NCBI GenBank assembly: GCA_022827625.1 | Contig: JAJEIE010000019.1 | Coordinates: 310,001-374,000, forward strand | DNA from: Candidatus Poribacteria bacterium | GTDB taxonomy: Bacteria > Poribacteria > WGA-4E > WGA-3G | Reading direction: 5' to 3' | DNA length: 64,000 bases | Shown here: one piece after another, positions 1 through 57,704 of the stretch | Layout: each line of letters opens with the position of its first letter | How positions within the stretch are numbered: the first letter of the stretch is position 1 | Made by a program: the position numbers and the translations under genes | Notes under the pieces: model-generated | What the model saw: the letters and a program-made list of their open reading frames with translations, nothing else | What the model was told of the DNA's origin: nothing | Databases searched by the model: none

Positions 1-783
1 TAGTACATCATCCGCCCCGAGTTCACGTGCCAACCGCTGTTGGTGCGGATATTTGGCGAAGATAATGATGCGATTCCGCTGTCCGAGCACCCGCAACGCA
101 GCAACAGTAAGCAAACCCATCGTGCCGCCGCCAATCACGCAGATTGAAGAGTCGGGATTACAAATCCCTCCTACCGGATGCCGTGCTTTCAAAACACCGT
201 GTAACGCACACGCAAACGGTTCGAGTAACACAGCCGCTTCGTCCGAAATACCGTCAGGAACGAGATGGAGTTGCGATGGATGCGCAAGCACGTATCGGCT
301 CCACCCGCCGCCTGTATCGCGACAATAACCGGTCTGGATGCCCTCTGAAATATCGCCGCTTGTGATATTTTCACAGTTGGCGAAACGGAAATTTCGGCAC
401 TGATGACACGCTGGTGAAATCCCTCGAACCTTACACGACAAGGCAGGTTCAATGACCACACGCGCACCAACGCCGAAGCCATCCACTGCGTCACCGATTT
501 CCGCGATGTCGCCTACGATTTCATGCCCTAACACAAAAGGTGTTGACGTGAACGGCGAAAAATAAGGACTCCCTTTCGCAGTGATTGTCGCCAAATCGGA
601 GCCGCAGATACCGCTGAGGCGGGTCTCGACTTTAACCCATTCAGGTGTTGGCAGTTGCGGCTCCGGTATATCAACGAGACGCGTACAGGAAAATGGCGAC
701 GTATAAAGGCTCCGCCACCGTTTTCCAAGGTAGCGCATCGCAAGATAACGTGGGATACTTTTGGTATATTGGACGGCTTCCAC
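1..783 (-). CDS. Zinc-dependent alcohol dehydrogenase-like oxidoreductase (3' end outside window)
   Basis: Medium-chain Zn-ADH of the threonine/butanediol dehydrogenase type (COG1063-like); about 261 residues are visible and the C-terminus lies beyond position 1. The catalytic zinc region reads SGICGSD and LGHE. The structural zinc lobe has four cysteines spaced C-x8-C-x2-C-x7-C. The Rossmann glycines read CVIGGGTMG. I chose GTG at 783 (MEAVQYTKSIPRY) because family members carry a short leader before the LGKR segment, and an in-frame TAG lies four codons upstream; ATG at 738 is the alternative. It follows the Uma2 gene by 18 bp on the same strand, so it may be cotranscribed. Oddity: a copy of the genome's palindromic repeat is read in frame just before the Rossmann motif (151-174). 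Substrate cannot be inferred. Confidence 0.85.
   Translation of the reverse strand, partial: MEAVQYTKSIPRYLAMRYLGKRWRSLYTSPFSCTRLVDIPEPQLPTPEWVKVETRLSGICGSDLATITAKGSPYFSPFTSTPFVLGHEIVGDIAEIGDAVDGFGVGARVVIEPALSCKVRGISPACHQCRNFRFANCENITSGDISEGIQTGYCRDTGGGWSRYVLAHPSQLHLVPDGISDEAAVLLEPFACALHGVLKARHPVGGICNPDSSICVIGGGTMGLLTVAALRVLGQRNRIIIFAKYPHQQRLARELGADDVL
151..174 (-). repeat. Palindromic repeat copy inside the alcohol dehydrogenase reading frame
   Basis: On the minus strand this is a copy of the dispersed repeat (GTAGGAGGG, then the palindrome GGGATTTGTAATCCC, then GAC). It is translated in frame as VGGICNPDS, between the helix ending LKARHP and the Rossmann strand CVIGGG. Other copies of this repeat in the window are intergenic. 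Confidence 0.85.
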
Positions 784-2729: not shown

Positions 2730-4838
2730 TTATTTTGGTTGGACCTGTTCGATAGTACTACCGTTCCAAATCCAAAAATGGTCTCTCCTACCCCATTCAC
2801 CTTCATGACGTACCCGGTCTTTCGGTGTGAAAATGACTTGGGTGAGGTATCCGTCCGTAACTTCCACAGTATAGGTGTGGTGTAGTGCTGCGTCGCCATC
2901 TGTTAGGACCAAATCTTTGATAACAGGGGTACCATTTGCCAATAGATTGATTGTATGCGTCGCATTTATTGCCGCCATAAATGTGTTGGTCACGCGATAG
3001 GTACCGTTGCGTAGATCAAGCTTGAACGCCGCGTCCCTTTGACTCCAAACGGCATCATGAGAAACCGGTTCCTGCCGCCTACCGTCTCGGTAAGCCTCAT
3101 AAGGCGGGCGCGTCCGCCATCCGAATTTACCGCTCTCGTATTCCGTGTTGGGACCGATAGCGTGGTGGTCAGGGGCAGTTTCACTGGGTCTGCTATTGTG
3201 GTGTTGCATATCAAAACGGATTATCAAATTGCCTTCGTCCGTCTCGTCCCACAAATCCAGCATCGGGCCCGGGGCGCGTTTTTTCCTATAGAGTTGGAGA
3301 TGTTTCGTTTCGTAAATAATTTCATGATCTGCCGTGTATGCCCGAAATTCAGCAGTATCCGGTGGATACCATGCAAGAACATAGTCTACGGGTGCTTTCA
3401 GGTACCACGCGTCGATATAATCATCCGGCGCGTTTTCCTCGTCGCGATTTATCGGGAAGTAGTTGAAAGCGGCTTCGTAATTTGCCAAATGTGCCACGTC
3501 GTCTGCGTATACGCCATAGAGTGCCATGTGGTGCGCAAACGGTGTGACGTACTCAATCCTTCCTAACGCATCAGATTTGTGCCAATCCTCACTCCGAATT
3601 TGGTACGTTGTATGCGGTTCGATAAGATGTGTTCCCGATACCACTTCTGAAATCTCTGGCGCGATGCGGGCATGGTCATAGGCAGTCCTACCAAAGTGGA
3701 TTAAACTGAAGACGATAAGACAGGCTGCGATAGCATAACGAAATTGTTTGCCCATATCTGGAATGAACCACGCTGCCATCATCAGCAGAATGTAGAGATG
3801 AATTCTGTCGTTAATCCAACCTCCAGGACCATAACTCCACGGTGCCCTGATGAACATATACGTGAACAAGATCGCAATTAGTAGAAAGACATCAGTCTGT
3901 TTCACCCACTGTTTACGTTGAATTCGATAACCGATAGAGACAAGTAATGCTATACCTAACACACCGAGGACACAATAGTGCACCGGAAGATGCCAGTCGG
4001 TAAAGTAGACGATCGACTTGATTCCCAAAAAGTATTCCCAAACCCATTCCGCGCCGCGGTGGTTGCCTTGTTGGTGCTGTTTTACACTCTGTAGGTAATA
4101 ATCTACCAGCACAAAATACATCGGCACCATATAAAGAAAGAAGCGAAATACGGGTTTGAGGCTAACGACAAACTTTTGCAGCAGTGCGGTAAAACCTTCG
4201 CGGCGCGTTCGCCACGCTGCGGCTATCGCCGGTGCCCCCCACAAACAACCGCCTGCCACAGAGATACCCAACACGACCAGTCCGTATGAAGCAATATGTG
4301 ATAGATAGGTCACCAGTAGCAACACATAAAGCCAAACCAAGTATCTTACCTGCATGTCGTCTTTGTGTTTCCACCAGAACCCGAAGCTAAAAAAGAAAAA
4401 CGAGATGCTCAGTTGGAAGTTGTAGAATCCCATATAGAGGAGATAGTTATAAGCAAATGGGAAACCGAGCCAAGCATACACATACTGTCCTTCCCGACCT
4501 TTGTTGACAGCATTGAGGAAGTAGAAGAAAGCGAACGGGACCATGCCAATCGCAATCGTTAGAAAAACCTTCTCCGAGATGACGGGTGGGAATACGTAGA
4601 GGAACGCCGCCAGCATGATGTGGGACAGCCAGTTCGGGAAGACCGTGATGTTCAACTCCCACGCATCCCGCAATGTATAATTTTCGTGTTTGCCATATTC
4701 TTTTAACACCAAACCGTTATAGATATGGCTCGCACCGTCTTGAGAGGGAAAATACGCAAAGATCCAGAGCGGTAAGATATGTAGAACCAACAACACTACA
4801 AATATATGTTTCCATGACAAATTTCGCCAGTTAAACAT
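2730..4838 (-). CDS. Large multi-pass membrane protein, possibly GT-C glycosyltransferase-like
   Basis: 702 residues from the chosen ATG at 4838. The N-terminal ~430 residues hold about ten to twelve hydrophobic segments; the C-terminal ~270 residues are soluble and presumably extracytoplasmic. The first loop after TM1 has FPSQDGASHIYNG, with an acidic residue where GT-C (PMT/ArnT-type) glycosyltransferases carry a catalytic Asp; this is only a suggestion. The frame stays open upstream to 4883, but those 15 extra codons (MSGFGNPSYRRIGEN) are simply the palindromic repeat at 4856-4881 translated, so the downstream ATG with GGGGA before it is preferred. Family not firmly recognised. Confidence 0.7.
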   Translation of the reverse strand: MFNWRNLSWKHIFVVLLVLHILPLWIFAYFPSQDGASHIYNGLVLKEYGKHENYTLRDAWELNITVFPNWLSHIMLAAFLYVFPPVISEKVFLTIAIGMVPFAFFYFLNAVNKGREGQYVYAWLGFPFAYNYLLYMGFYNFQLSISFFFFSFGFWWKHKDDMQVRYLVWLYVLLLVTYLSHIASYGLVVLGISVAGGCLWGAPAIAAAWRTRREGFTALLQKFVVSLKPVFRFFLYMVPMYFVLVDYYLQSVKQHQQGNHRGAEWVWEYFLGIKSIVYFTDWHLPVHYCVLGVLGIALLVSIGYRIQRKQWVKQTDVFLLIAILFTYMFIRAPWSYGPGGWINDRIHLYILLMMAAWFIPDMGKQFRYAIAACLIVFSLIHFGRTAYDHARIAPEISEVVSGTHLIEPHTTYQIRSEDWHKSDALGRIEYVTPFAHHMALYGVYADDVAHLANYEAAFNYFPINRDEENAPDDYIDAWYLKAPVDYVLAWYPPDTAEFRAYTADHEIIYETKHLQLYRKKRAPGPMLDLWDETDEGNLIIRFDMQHHNSRPSETAPDHHAIGPNTEYESGKFGWRTRPPYEAYRDGRRQEPVSHDAVWSQRDAAFKLDLRNGTYRVTNTFMAAINATHTINLLANGTPVIKDLVLTDGDAALHHTYTVEVTDGYLTQVIFTPKDRVRHEGEWGRRDHFWIWNGSTIEQVQPK

Positions 4839-4855
4839 ATTTTCCCCAATCCTTC

Positions 4856-4881
4856 TGTAGGAGGGATTTCCGAATCCCGAC
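4856..4881 (+). repeat. Dispersed palindromic repeat copy
   Basis: TGTAGGAGGG plus palindrome and GAC, in the 5' region of the 702-aa membrane protein gene. It creates a misleading upstream start in that frame. Confidence 0.85.
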
Positions 4882-4940
4882 ATCTACGACAAATTGCGTC
4901 AATTGAACATATCTTCCCTCCGATACGGGGAAGTTGCTAC

Positions 4941-5703: not shown

Positions 5704-5767
5704 TGTAGGAGGGATTTCCAAATCCCGACCCACCGCTTTTCTGTAGGAGGGATTTCCGAATCCCGAC
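5704..5767 (+). repeat. Two dispersed palindromic repeat copies
   Basis: Copies at 5704-5729 and 5742-5767, separated by 12 bp, upstream of nth. They are followed by a GACTGCTGACCGCCAGCAG-type segment that recurs in variant form near 37310. Confidence 0.85.
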
Positions 5768-15710: not shown

Positions 15711-16973
15711 TTATCGATTCAAAAGGTTTAAAACGAACCCGGTCGCCATTTTCGGATAGAAGTAAGTCGATTTTTGTGGCATTGTTGAACCCGCCATCGC
15801 CACGTCCAACACCTGTTCAACGGGTGTCGGATTCATGAGGAGCGCAACGCCACCCGCTCTGCTTTTTACGTGTTCAACGGCATCGTCTGCATGAGCCGTG
15901 TAACTAATATGTTCCGCTAATGTCTCAACCTGAAACATCTCTTTGATGAGCGTTTCTTGTACAATCACTACGTCTAATTGTCTTGGTGATGTTGTATGCG
16001 GAATCAATAGGCGGTAGTTGCCGTCTGCCGTATACATGCCGACAGCGGCTGATTTCCCTTTTAATGTCTCCAATTTTGCCATAAGATTTGCTTGCGTGTC
16101 AATTTCATGTACTTCAAAGACTTCAGGCAATTTCGCAATAGCCCGCGAAATCTGATGAGGGCTTAGATTATCTAATAAGCGATGAATCGCCAGAACAGCC
16201 AGACCGGGTGATTCCATCCGCACAAGGTTCATCATCATATAACCGTAACCCGTTAGTGCGGTGTTCGACAGTTTCTGTGCCATTTCCGCTTGAAAAGCCA
16301 GCGCCGTTTCATATCGGTGGTGCCCATCGGCGATTAAGAGCGGTTTCGATGAAAAAAGGTTTTGAATTTCCTGGTTGCGCGCCGCGTCATCTAAACACCA
16401 CAAGCGATGTGTGCTGCCAAAAGTCTCTGGACAGTCAACTTCGGGGGCGTGTGCATCGGTGAAACCTTGCATAACCTGTTCAATATCACCGGTTGGGTCG
16501 CCGTAAAGCAGAAAGATTGGACTTAGGTTCGCGTGACATGCACGCATGAGATTCAGCCGATCTGCCTTCGGACCAGCGTGTGTCTTTTCGTGGGGGAGAA
16601 TGATTCTGTTTTTAAAGGGTTCAAGTTTGACGAGGGCAATCAAAGCGCGACGCGTGTAGTTTTTTCCGTCTGGCGCACGAAACGCTTGATCGTAGATGTA
16701 ATATCGCGGCGTTGGGTCCTGTACGAGTGTGTTGTCTGAAATCCACTGATTCATCAATGCCGCGGCTCGCGTATACTGATTCGCATCTTCGGTGTCATCT
16801 TCGCAAGGTTGGCTTAAAATCAGATGAATGATATTGGCAGGGTCGCGTGCCGCTAAGGCGAGTCGTTCTTCGGTTTTGATGACATCATAAGGCGGCGCGA
16901 TGACATGCTCGATCCGCTCTACTTGGGTTGCATTGTAACGTAAGCCGCAAAACGGTATAACTGTTGTTTCCAT
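15711..16973 (-). CDS. DUF1015 family protein
   Basis: 420 residues matching DUF1015: N-terminal APPYDVI, ARDPANIIHLIL, then ILPHEKTHAGPKADRL and LIADGHHRYETALAF. The function of the family is unproven; it is often near serine biosynthesis genes, though here the next gene is a cysteine synthase about 450 bp away on the same strand, separated by a MITE-like element. Full family length. Confidence 0.9.
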   Translation of the reverse strand: METTVIPFCGLRYNATQVERIEHVIAPPYDVIKTEERLALAARDPANIIHLILSQPCEDDTEDANQYTRAAALMNQWISDNTLVQDPTPRYYIYDQAFRAPDGKNYTRRALIALVKLEPFKNRIILPHEKTHAGPKADRLNLMRACHANLSPIFLLYGDPTGDIEQVMQGFTDAHAPEVDCPETFGSTHRLWCLDDAARNQEIQNLFSSKPLLIADGHHRYETALAFQAEMAQKLSNTALTGYGYMMMNLVRMESPGLAVLAIHRLLDNLSPHQISRAIAKLPEVFEVHEIDTQANLMAKLETLKGKSAAVGMYTADGNYRLLIPHTTSPRQLDVVIVQETLIKEMFQVETLAEHISYTAHADDAVEHVKSRAGGVALLMNPTPVEQVLDVAMAGSTMPQKSTYFYPKMATGFVLNLLNR

Positions 16974-16974
16974 A

Positions 16975-17424
16975 TTTTTAACTATTAAATCTGGTCACCG
17001 TTCCACTTCGTTTCACGGTGGTTTTCAATCCAGTAATAAACCTTTCATAACCTAAAGTAGGCTTTTTAGACTATATTTTTAACGATTGCTTCGCCATGAG
17101 AATGCAGGCTTCCAATTGCATGTTTTTAACGATTGAATCTGGTCACCATTCCACTTCATTTCACGGTGGTTTTCAGTCCAGTAATGAACCTTTCATAACC
17201 TAAAGCAGGTTTTTTAGACTATATTTTTAACGATTGCTTCGCCATGAGAATGCAGGCTTCCAACTGTTGGTTAAGAAACTCTCATACGTCAAACGCTGTT
17301 AGGCTTAACCTAAAACCCGGGGAATGCCATACGGCATTCATACCCGGTTCATGCCATACGGCATGAATACCGTTGATTCTGATTTGTGAAACGTAGTGGA
17401 ACAGTGACCATATTTAATAGTTTA
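16975..17424. mobile_element. MITE-like element with terminal inverted repeats and internal direct repeat
   Basis: Fills the 455-bp gap between the DUF1015 and cysteine synthase genes and encodes no protein. The ends, 16978-17016 and 17386-17424, are imperfect inverted repeats of 39 bp (inner end GTTTCAC / GTGAAAC). Inside the left half, 16975-17115 and 17123-17263 are near-identical direct repeats, period 148 bp. The right part holds GCCATACGGCAT palindromes and GAATACCGTTGATTCTGATT, which also occurs at about 28432. No clear target-site duplication was seen. Confidence 0.75.
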
Positions 17425-20027: not shown

Positions 20028-20052
20028 TGTAGGAGGGATTTCCAAATCCCGA
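20028..20052 (+). repeat. Palindromic repeat in the modA leader
   Basis: Copy with core GGGATTTCCAAATCCC between the modA promoter and start, so it would be transcribed as a hairpin in the 5' UTR. Confidence 0.85.
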
Positions 20053-21557: not shown

Positions 21558-21694
21558 ACATAGCGTTCAGTTCTTCTGTAGGAGGGATTTGAAATCCCGA
21601 CTCTTATCGCTAACGATATTCGGAACGTTTTACGCTCCGATAGACATAGTATTCAGTTCTTCTGTAGGAGGGATTTGTAATCCCGACTCTTATC
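21540..21694 (+). repeat. 86-bp direct duplication covering the modB 3' end and a palindromic repeat
   Basis: 21540-21608 and 21626-21694 are near-identical (period 86). Each holds the modB terminal sequence CGTTTTAC(C/G)CTCCGATAG and one palindromic repeat copy (21577-21601 and 21663-21687). Confidence 0.85.
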
Positions 21695-23839: not shown

Positions 23840-23908
23840 TGTAGGAGGGATTTCCAAATCCCGACTCTTAACTTATAACCTCTGTAGGAGGGATTTCCAA
23901 ATCCCGAC
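23840..23908 (+). repeat. Two palindromic repeat copies
   Basis: Copies at 23840-23865 and 23883-23908, separated by an AACTTATAACC segment similar to the heptamer array at 12363. Confidence 0.88.
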
Positions 23909-29597: not shown

Positions 29598-29652
29598 TGT
29601 AGGAGGGATTTCCAAATCCCGACTTTTCGCTGTAGGATCGAGCTGTGCTCGC
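29598..29652 (+). repeat. Palindromic repeat copy and a second repeat type
   Basis: 29598-29623 is the GGGATTTCCAAATCCC repeat; 29631-29652 (TGTAGGATCGAGCTGTGCTC) is a second type, recurring in variant form at about 41355. Confidence 0.8.
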
Positions 29653-29769: not shown

Positions 29770-29827
29770 AGCGTTACTTGCACAGACAAGGAAAATTAGG
29801 ATTTTCTATACACATAAGTTCGTAGTA

Positions 29828-41320: not shown

Positions 41321-41378
41321 TGTAGGAGGGATTTCCAAATCCCGACTTCTTACTATAGGAGCGAGCTCCTGCTCGCGA
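41321..41378 (+). repeat. Palindromic repeat copy plus GAGCGAGCTCCTGCTCG repeat
   Basis: 41321-41346 is the GGGATTTCCAAATCCC repeat; 41354-41378 is the second type, also seen in degenerate form at 29631. Confidence 0.82.
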
Positions 41379-42982: not shown

Positions 42983-43008
42983 TGTAGGAGGGATTTCCCA
43001 ATCCCGAC
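42983..43008 (+). repeat. Palindromic repeat copy
   Basis: Between the FAD oxidoreductase stop and the TAXI protein start; GGGATTTCCCAATCCC variant. Confidence 0.85.
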
Positions 43009-57596: not shown

Positions 57597-57704
57597 TGGT
57601 AGGAGGGATTTCCAAATCCCGACTTCTGACCGCTGAGGGTGAAGCGAAGCAGAATGCCCCAACTGCTGATAGCCATTCTGTAGGAGGGATTTCCAAATCC
57701 CGAC
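57597..57704 (+). repeat. Two palindromic repeat copies
   Basis: 57597-57623 and 57679-57704, both followed by TTCTGACC, so a larger unit of about 80 bp may be duplicated. Confidence 0.88.

Follow-up and report, generated by a model that had tools for sequence, protein, structure and literature searches.

The DNA analysed here (the window, 64,000 nucleotides of Candidatus Poribacteria sequence) opens inside a dehydrogenase gene whose coding sequence contains a short palindromic repeat that recurs elsewhere in the same stretch. What kind of element is this repeat, could an enzyme that contains it still work, and how did it come to lie in the reading frame? Very probably, the repeat is a GTAG-class REP that lies in frame in a zinc-dependent dehydrogenase, contributes the peptide VGGICNPDS to it and has many counterparts in other genes.

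The repeat and its host gene

Window positions 151-174, which the gene uses on the minus strand, read GTCGGGATTACAAATCCCTCCTAC; the reverse complement, GTAGGAGGGATTTGTAATCCCGAC, is an exact repeat core, a copy of the architecture GTAGGAGGGATTT-loop-AATCCCGAC of this genome's repeat. The exact match, together with zero matches to the repeat in dinucleotide shuffles, rules out a chance resemblance. An earlier note on this DNA had described a palindromic repeat in frame inside an alcohol dehydrogenase, and the exact core within an intact ORF bears this out. It had also placed all other copies between genes. This holds in the window, where none of the 13 other copies (Table 1) has a two-sided coding signal, but not in the genome, where in-frame copies occur in other genes.

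The repeat exists in two forms. A 25-nt form, GTAGGAGGGATTTNNNAATCCCGAC, has 73 exact copies in the genome, many of them paired, and a 24-nt form with a shorter loop has 13 copies with at most one mismatch. Folded as single-stranded DNA, the repeat forms a hairpin of 6 bp, its GTAG head unpaired and its tail GAC. The main-family copies in the window all start with GTAG, followed by GA, the 6-bp stem, a loop of 3-4 nt and GAC. GTAG-1 REPs are defined by a GTAG head, GW extra bases, a stem of 5-13 bp, a loop of 2-20 nt and a 3-bp tail (PMC3733652), and the head and layout found here agree with this definition. REPs of the GTAG class have tens to thousands of dispersed copies, mainly intergenic and frequently clustered (PMC3733652); the copy number and dispersal of the present repeat are of the same kind, with 2 of 66 inspected 25-nt copies intragenic. 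Judged by its sequence, the repeat is a GTAG-class REP, present in the dehydrogenase as an intragenic copy.

Further GTAG-headed hairpins, one copy each, lie at window positions 29822, 36723, 36794 and 39829, which suggests that the genome harbors several REP families. A separate 148-nt tandem duplication (16968-17263, 93% identical) adjoins a 27-nt tandem repeat at 17315-17368.

Table 1. Repeat copies and host gene in the window
Feature	Position	Strand	Remark
Dehydrogenase, first 261 of 413 codons	1..783	-	continues outside the window, L009:9542-10783
28-nt stretch equal to the intergenic copy at 21664-21691	147..174	-	sequence identity, 28/28 bases
In-frame 24-nt core of the GTAG repeat	151..174	-	GTAGGAGGGATTTGTAATCCCGAC, read VGGICNPD
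25-nt form, 5' end of ORF 2730-4883	4857..4881	+	overlaps the longest reading of that ORF
25-nt form, tandem of two, starts 5705 and 5743	5705..5767	+	
25-nt form, GAT end in place of GAC	20029..20052	+	without coding signal
24-nt form	21578..21605	+	without coding signal
24-nt form, 28 nt identical to the in-gene copy	21664..21691	+	without coding signal
25-nt form, tandem of two, starts 23841 and 23884	23841..23908	+	
25-nt form, intergenic	29599..29623	+	
25-nt form, intergenic	41322..41346	+	
25-nt form, intergenic	42984..43008	+	
25-nt form, two copies, starts 57599 and 57680	57599..57704	+	

The host gene runs out of the window; in full it encodes 413 aa on the minus strand of L009, free of stops and frameshifts. 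Its product is a zinc-dependent medium-chain dehydrogenase, with complete Pfam domains ADH_N (PF08240) and ADH_zinc_N (PF00107) well over cut-off, corresponding to the GroES-like catalytic and Rossmann domains with their metal and cofactor motifs. With the next codon, the 24-nt core is read VGGICNPDS (V204-S212), within the stretch KARHPVGGICNPDSSICVIGGG and directly ahead of the first Rossmann strand. The zinc and cofactor motifs are intact, and the conserved motif columns are retained in the proteins that carry the insert (carriers). A dead gene is excluded, the orthologue matches of the dehydrogenase all being free of stops. As the earlier note had supposed, the enzyme is presumably functional, judging from its intact ORF, its motifs and its predicted fold.

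The dehydrogenase fold is common to the AlphaFold models of an orthologue that carries the insert (413 aa, 92% identical to the protein of the window) and of one with an empty site (407 aa), and a fold search returned zinc dehydrogenases. The modelled loop lies between a helix ending near residue 199 and the first Rossmann strand; over its ten-residue block 201-210, the carrier has a mean pLDDT of 48, compared with 85 for the empty protein. Modelled in this way, the insert is a flexible loop with which the enzyme could remain active.

Filled and empty alleles of one gene

The insert occupies the same codon in 8 of 50 aligned orthologues, namely in G000, G031, G037, G034, G009, G001 and G007 of one genus and in G040 of another; the remainder are empty, with a loop six residues shorter. 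The earlier estimate of about six added residues is exact, carriers aligning over 412-413 residues and close empty orthologues over 406-407. The alignment with close homologues that the earlier note proposed has thus yielded filled and empty alleles of one gene, and some of the empty-site orthologues are sisters of carriers. All VGGIC(N/D)PD loops of the dehydrogenases are encoded by the repeat and no broken gene was found, so that neither of the contrary outcomes named in that note, a similar loop lacking repeat DNA or a frameshifted gene, was encountered. The difference between filled and empty loops extends over 8 to 14 codons and is no clean insertion, so that the exact junctions between element and target cannot be fixed.

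Repeats are common trouble spots of assembly, and these genomes are metagenome bins. An artefact of assembly or binning would nevertheless have had to produce the same junctions in eight assemblies, including the 5.5-Mb contig of G040, to keep the frame every time and to involve a 24-nt repeat shorter than a sequencing read; it can be set aside with near certainty.

The carriers do not share a simple line of descent. In a gene tree built with the insert columns omitted, they fall in four places; an AU test rejects a single clade (p=8e-70), and four state changes are required by well-supported branches. The rpoB tree places the empty G017 among carriers G007, G009 and G001. Near the insert, the sequence of G007 is closest to that of empty G017, and that of G034 to empty G033; the segment that was swapped measures no more than about 8 to 14 codons. 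Sliding similarity lends no support to transfer of the insert on a wide recombination tract, while shorter tracts are possible. Separately, the dehydrogenases of G001 and G009 (L028, L027) are near-identical despite well-diverged rpoB genes, indicating gene transfer or mixed bins.

The core itself has changed little. Between carriers, 34-62% of fourfold-degenerate codons outside the insert are different; all eight nevertheless use the same codons for V, G, G, I and C, and no invariant stretch of the gene is longer than CGGTAGGAGGGATTTGT. Among the same-genus carriers tested, the core shows 0.87 differences per 24 nt, whereas none of the 387 other eight-codon windows falls under 1.13; once G040 is included, 3 of 387 windows are as low. 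At a second site, in an FAD oxidoreductase, the core value is 0.93 and the lowest of 393 windows has 1.40, and there too the carriers are not one clade (p=5e-4). Copies in a heparinase-like host decay ordinarily. Since the core falls below the other windows and the heparinase-like copies are decaying, the copies in the dehydrogenase seem younger than the genes around them, or under special constraint, and their conservation could reflect function. Carriers outside the dehydrogenase and the FAD oxidoreductase were gathered by near-exact repeat patterns, which under-counts decayed copies; for this reason, conserved cores in the NuoG-like and N-terminal hosts carry no weight as evidence.

Because the carriers are polyphyletic, at least two of them have flanks that group with an empty sister and the core is little diverged, three options remain for the dehydrogenase site: repeated insertion, very short exchanges, or an old allele under unusual constraint. 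All are possible. The last would be a single insertion that spread early through recombination or unsorted ancestry and was then kept almost unchanged by selection on the hairpin, as DNA or as RNA, or by gene conversion with copies in the same genome as donors, with no repeated insertion. It would fit the core boundaries, which are common to all carriers, and the 12 nt 5' of the core, which look homologous among them (KARHP, KAQHP, KTQHP, KERHS) and have diverged at 5.2 of 12 positions versus 1.1 of 24 in the core. Such an origin is doubtful all the same: the empty alleles of the same lineages have their own derived NRTAT-type loop in common, and repeated loss would not have restored it; the normal decay of the heparinase-like copies argues against general constraint or conversion; and no decayed intermediate was seen at the dehydrogenase site among the aligned orthologues.

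Could the loop instead be adaptive, altering substrate, oligomer contacts or, through its Cys, redox sensing, and have been exchanged as a useful allele? The insert is intact at the protein level in 8/8 carriers, save for N to D and S to A in two, and is common to more than one genus. Yet this is improbable, as many unrelated proteins, and linkers too, contain the same peptide, the antisense reading gives the unrelated SGLQIPPT, confidence in the predicted loop is low, and selection on the protein leaves the silent-site identity unexplained. In the reading preferred here, REP mobility would bring the element in, by analogy through a RAYT-type HUH transposase that acts on the hairpin in single-stranded form. 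Copies would persist as tolerated rather than useful, and permissive loops would be re-occupied in separate lineages, whether through fresh insertion or through recombination with a carrier over very short tracts.

Insertions in other proteins

Copies inside coding sequences were counted on sampled loci and scored by a simple codon-usage heuristic. By this measure, 35 of 199 distinct inspected copies lie in frame with a coding signal, so that the search for other coding sequences with the repeat in the same frame, also proposed earlier, was answered positively. All 22 sense copies use one reading frame and read VGGI, and 12 of 13 antisense copies share another, giving SG, two residues and IPPT. 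As far as translated sequences can tell, the same REP family is in frame in loops or domain linkers of about 12 unrelated proteins of this bacterial family. Hosts assigned by Pfam or NCBIfam include glycyl-tRNA synthetase (a tandem in the alpha-beta linker), chorismate synthase, PriA, a UvrD-exonuclease fusion, the FAD/NAD(P)-binding oxidoreductase, and proteins resembling PEP synthase, NuoG/formate dehydrogenase, siroheme synthase, squalene-hopene cyclase and thiamin pyrophosphokinase. Some of the host enzymes are normally considered essential. The insert of chorismate synthase corresponds to an 11-residue gap in the closest solved structures.

An alpha-2-macroglobulin-like protein of G000, named from its GCLEQ motif and not from a profile, has a sense tandem. 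One of two such proteins in G040, 58% identical to that of G000, has an antisense tandem in apparently the same loop. Because the tandems are oppositely oriented, two events are needed there. It is conceivable, though put forward only tentatively, that in separate species repeated, independent insertions placed the repeat at the same codon in the dehydrogenase, the FAD oxidoreductase, the alpha-2-macroglobulin-like protein and the glycyl-tRNA synthetase linker. If so, particular protein loops would be landing sites of a transposable hairpin that adds peptides to working enzymes.

The two forms differ in how often they lie within genes, with 6 of 12 copies of the 24-nt form and 2 of 66 of the 25-nt form intragenic in this genome (Fisher p=9e-5, hand-counted). 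A unit of fixed length would keep the frame only in its 24-nt form, for which such an intragenic excess would be expected.

The same glycyl-tRNA synthetase linker also contains a second GTAG family, GTAGGTGCGGTTTCTAACCGCAC, read VGAVSNRT (L360 in G010, L363 in G013, L362 in G030, L349 in G023, L350 in G008); it is often tandem and sometimes adjoins decayed copies of the first family. In two genes for secreted proteins, VGGICNPD directly follows the hydrophobic core of a predicted signal peptide, of which it may form the cleavage region (L017 in G000, L108 in G016, L256 in G026, L271 in G035; L252 in G026).

Known elements and the source of mobility

Intragenic GTAG-tagged REPs have been published for Opitutus terrae, Xanthomonas, Stenotrophomonas, Thioalkalivibrio and others, and recB of two Xanthomonas species carries different REPs at about the same site (PMC3733652). 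The Poribacteria repeat resembles them in its GTAG head, GW bases, stem, loop and 3-bp tail, as well as in its intergenic majority and its in-frame minority that includes tRNA synthetases and repair helicases. It differs in belonging to another phylum, in having filled and empty orthologues in dozens of species, in its reused sites and near-invariant core, and in that no dedicated RAYT was found at the loci checked. Among the papers listed in the literature searched, none was relevant to REPs in Poribacteria. An intragenic REP is a known kind of insertion in a new lineage, and the pattern extends across a sponge-associated family of Poribacteria; the combination of polyphyletic dehydrogenase carriers with a low-divergence core is new and unexplained.

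The earlier note had likened the insert to the palindromic elements of Rickettsia, which, as later papers relate from Ogata et al. 2000 (PMC10969869, PMC3733652), are in-frame palindromic inserts in many unrelated functional protein genes. The analogy stands, while the nearest class is the GTAG-tagged REP and not the longer RPE-1. In those accounts, RPE-1 is a palindrome of about 150 bp with a conserved encoded peptide, against a GTAG-tagged element of 24-25 nt (24-28 nt in the class comparison) here, and the REPs RPE-4 and RPE-6 are tagged with CGTC instead of GTAG.

Intragenic palindromes are usually known from single genomes, whereas here dozens of related genomes hold filled and empty alleles, allowing direct questions about whether REPs choose sites, how they move and whether working enzymes gain new loops from mobile hairpins. 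Sites with intact copies only (dehydrogenase, FAD oxidoreductase) can be set against a decaying one (heparinase-like), which makes age and turnover measurable.

The earlier proposal that the repeat can move and is tolerated as a protein insert gains support from its distribution; as no transposase is tied to the family, we infer mobility from that distribution. Neither a RAYT nor another transposase was found beside the main repeat family at the loci checked, although RAYT association is frequent, if not required, for REPs. As in REP-RAYT systems (REPtrons), the genus has RAYT-type Y1 transposase genes, several of which adjoin arrays of other GTAG repeats; unlike REPtrons, those checked have these other repeats, not the main family, at their flanks. 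The array that flanks one such gene (L076, G000:C7:153721-154317) consists of a different GTAG repeat, GTAGGGCAATTCATTGCC.
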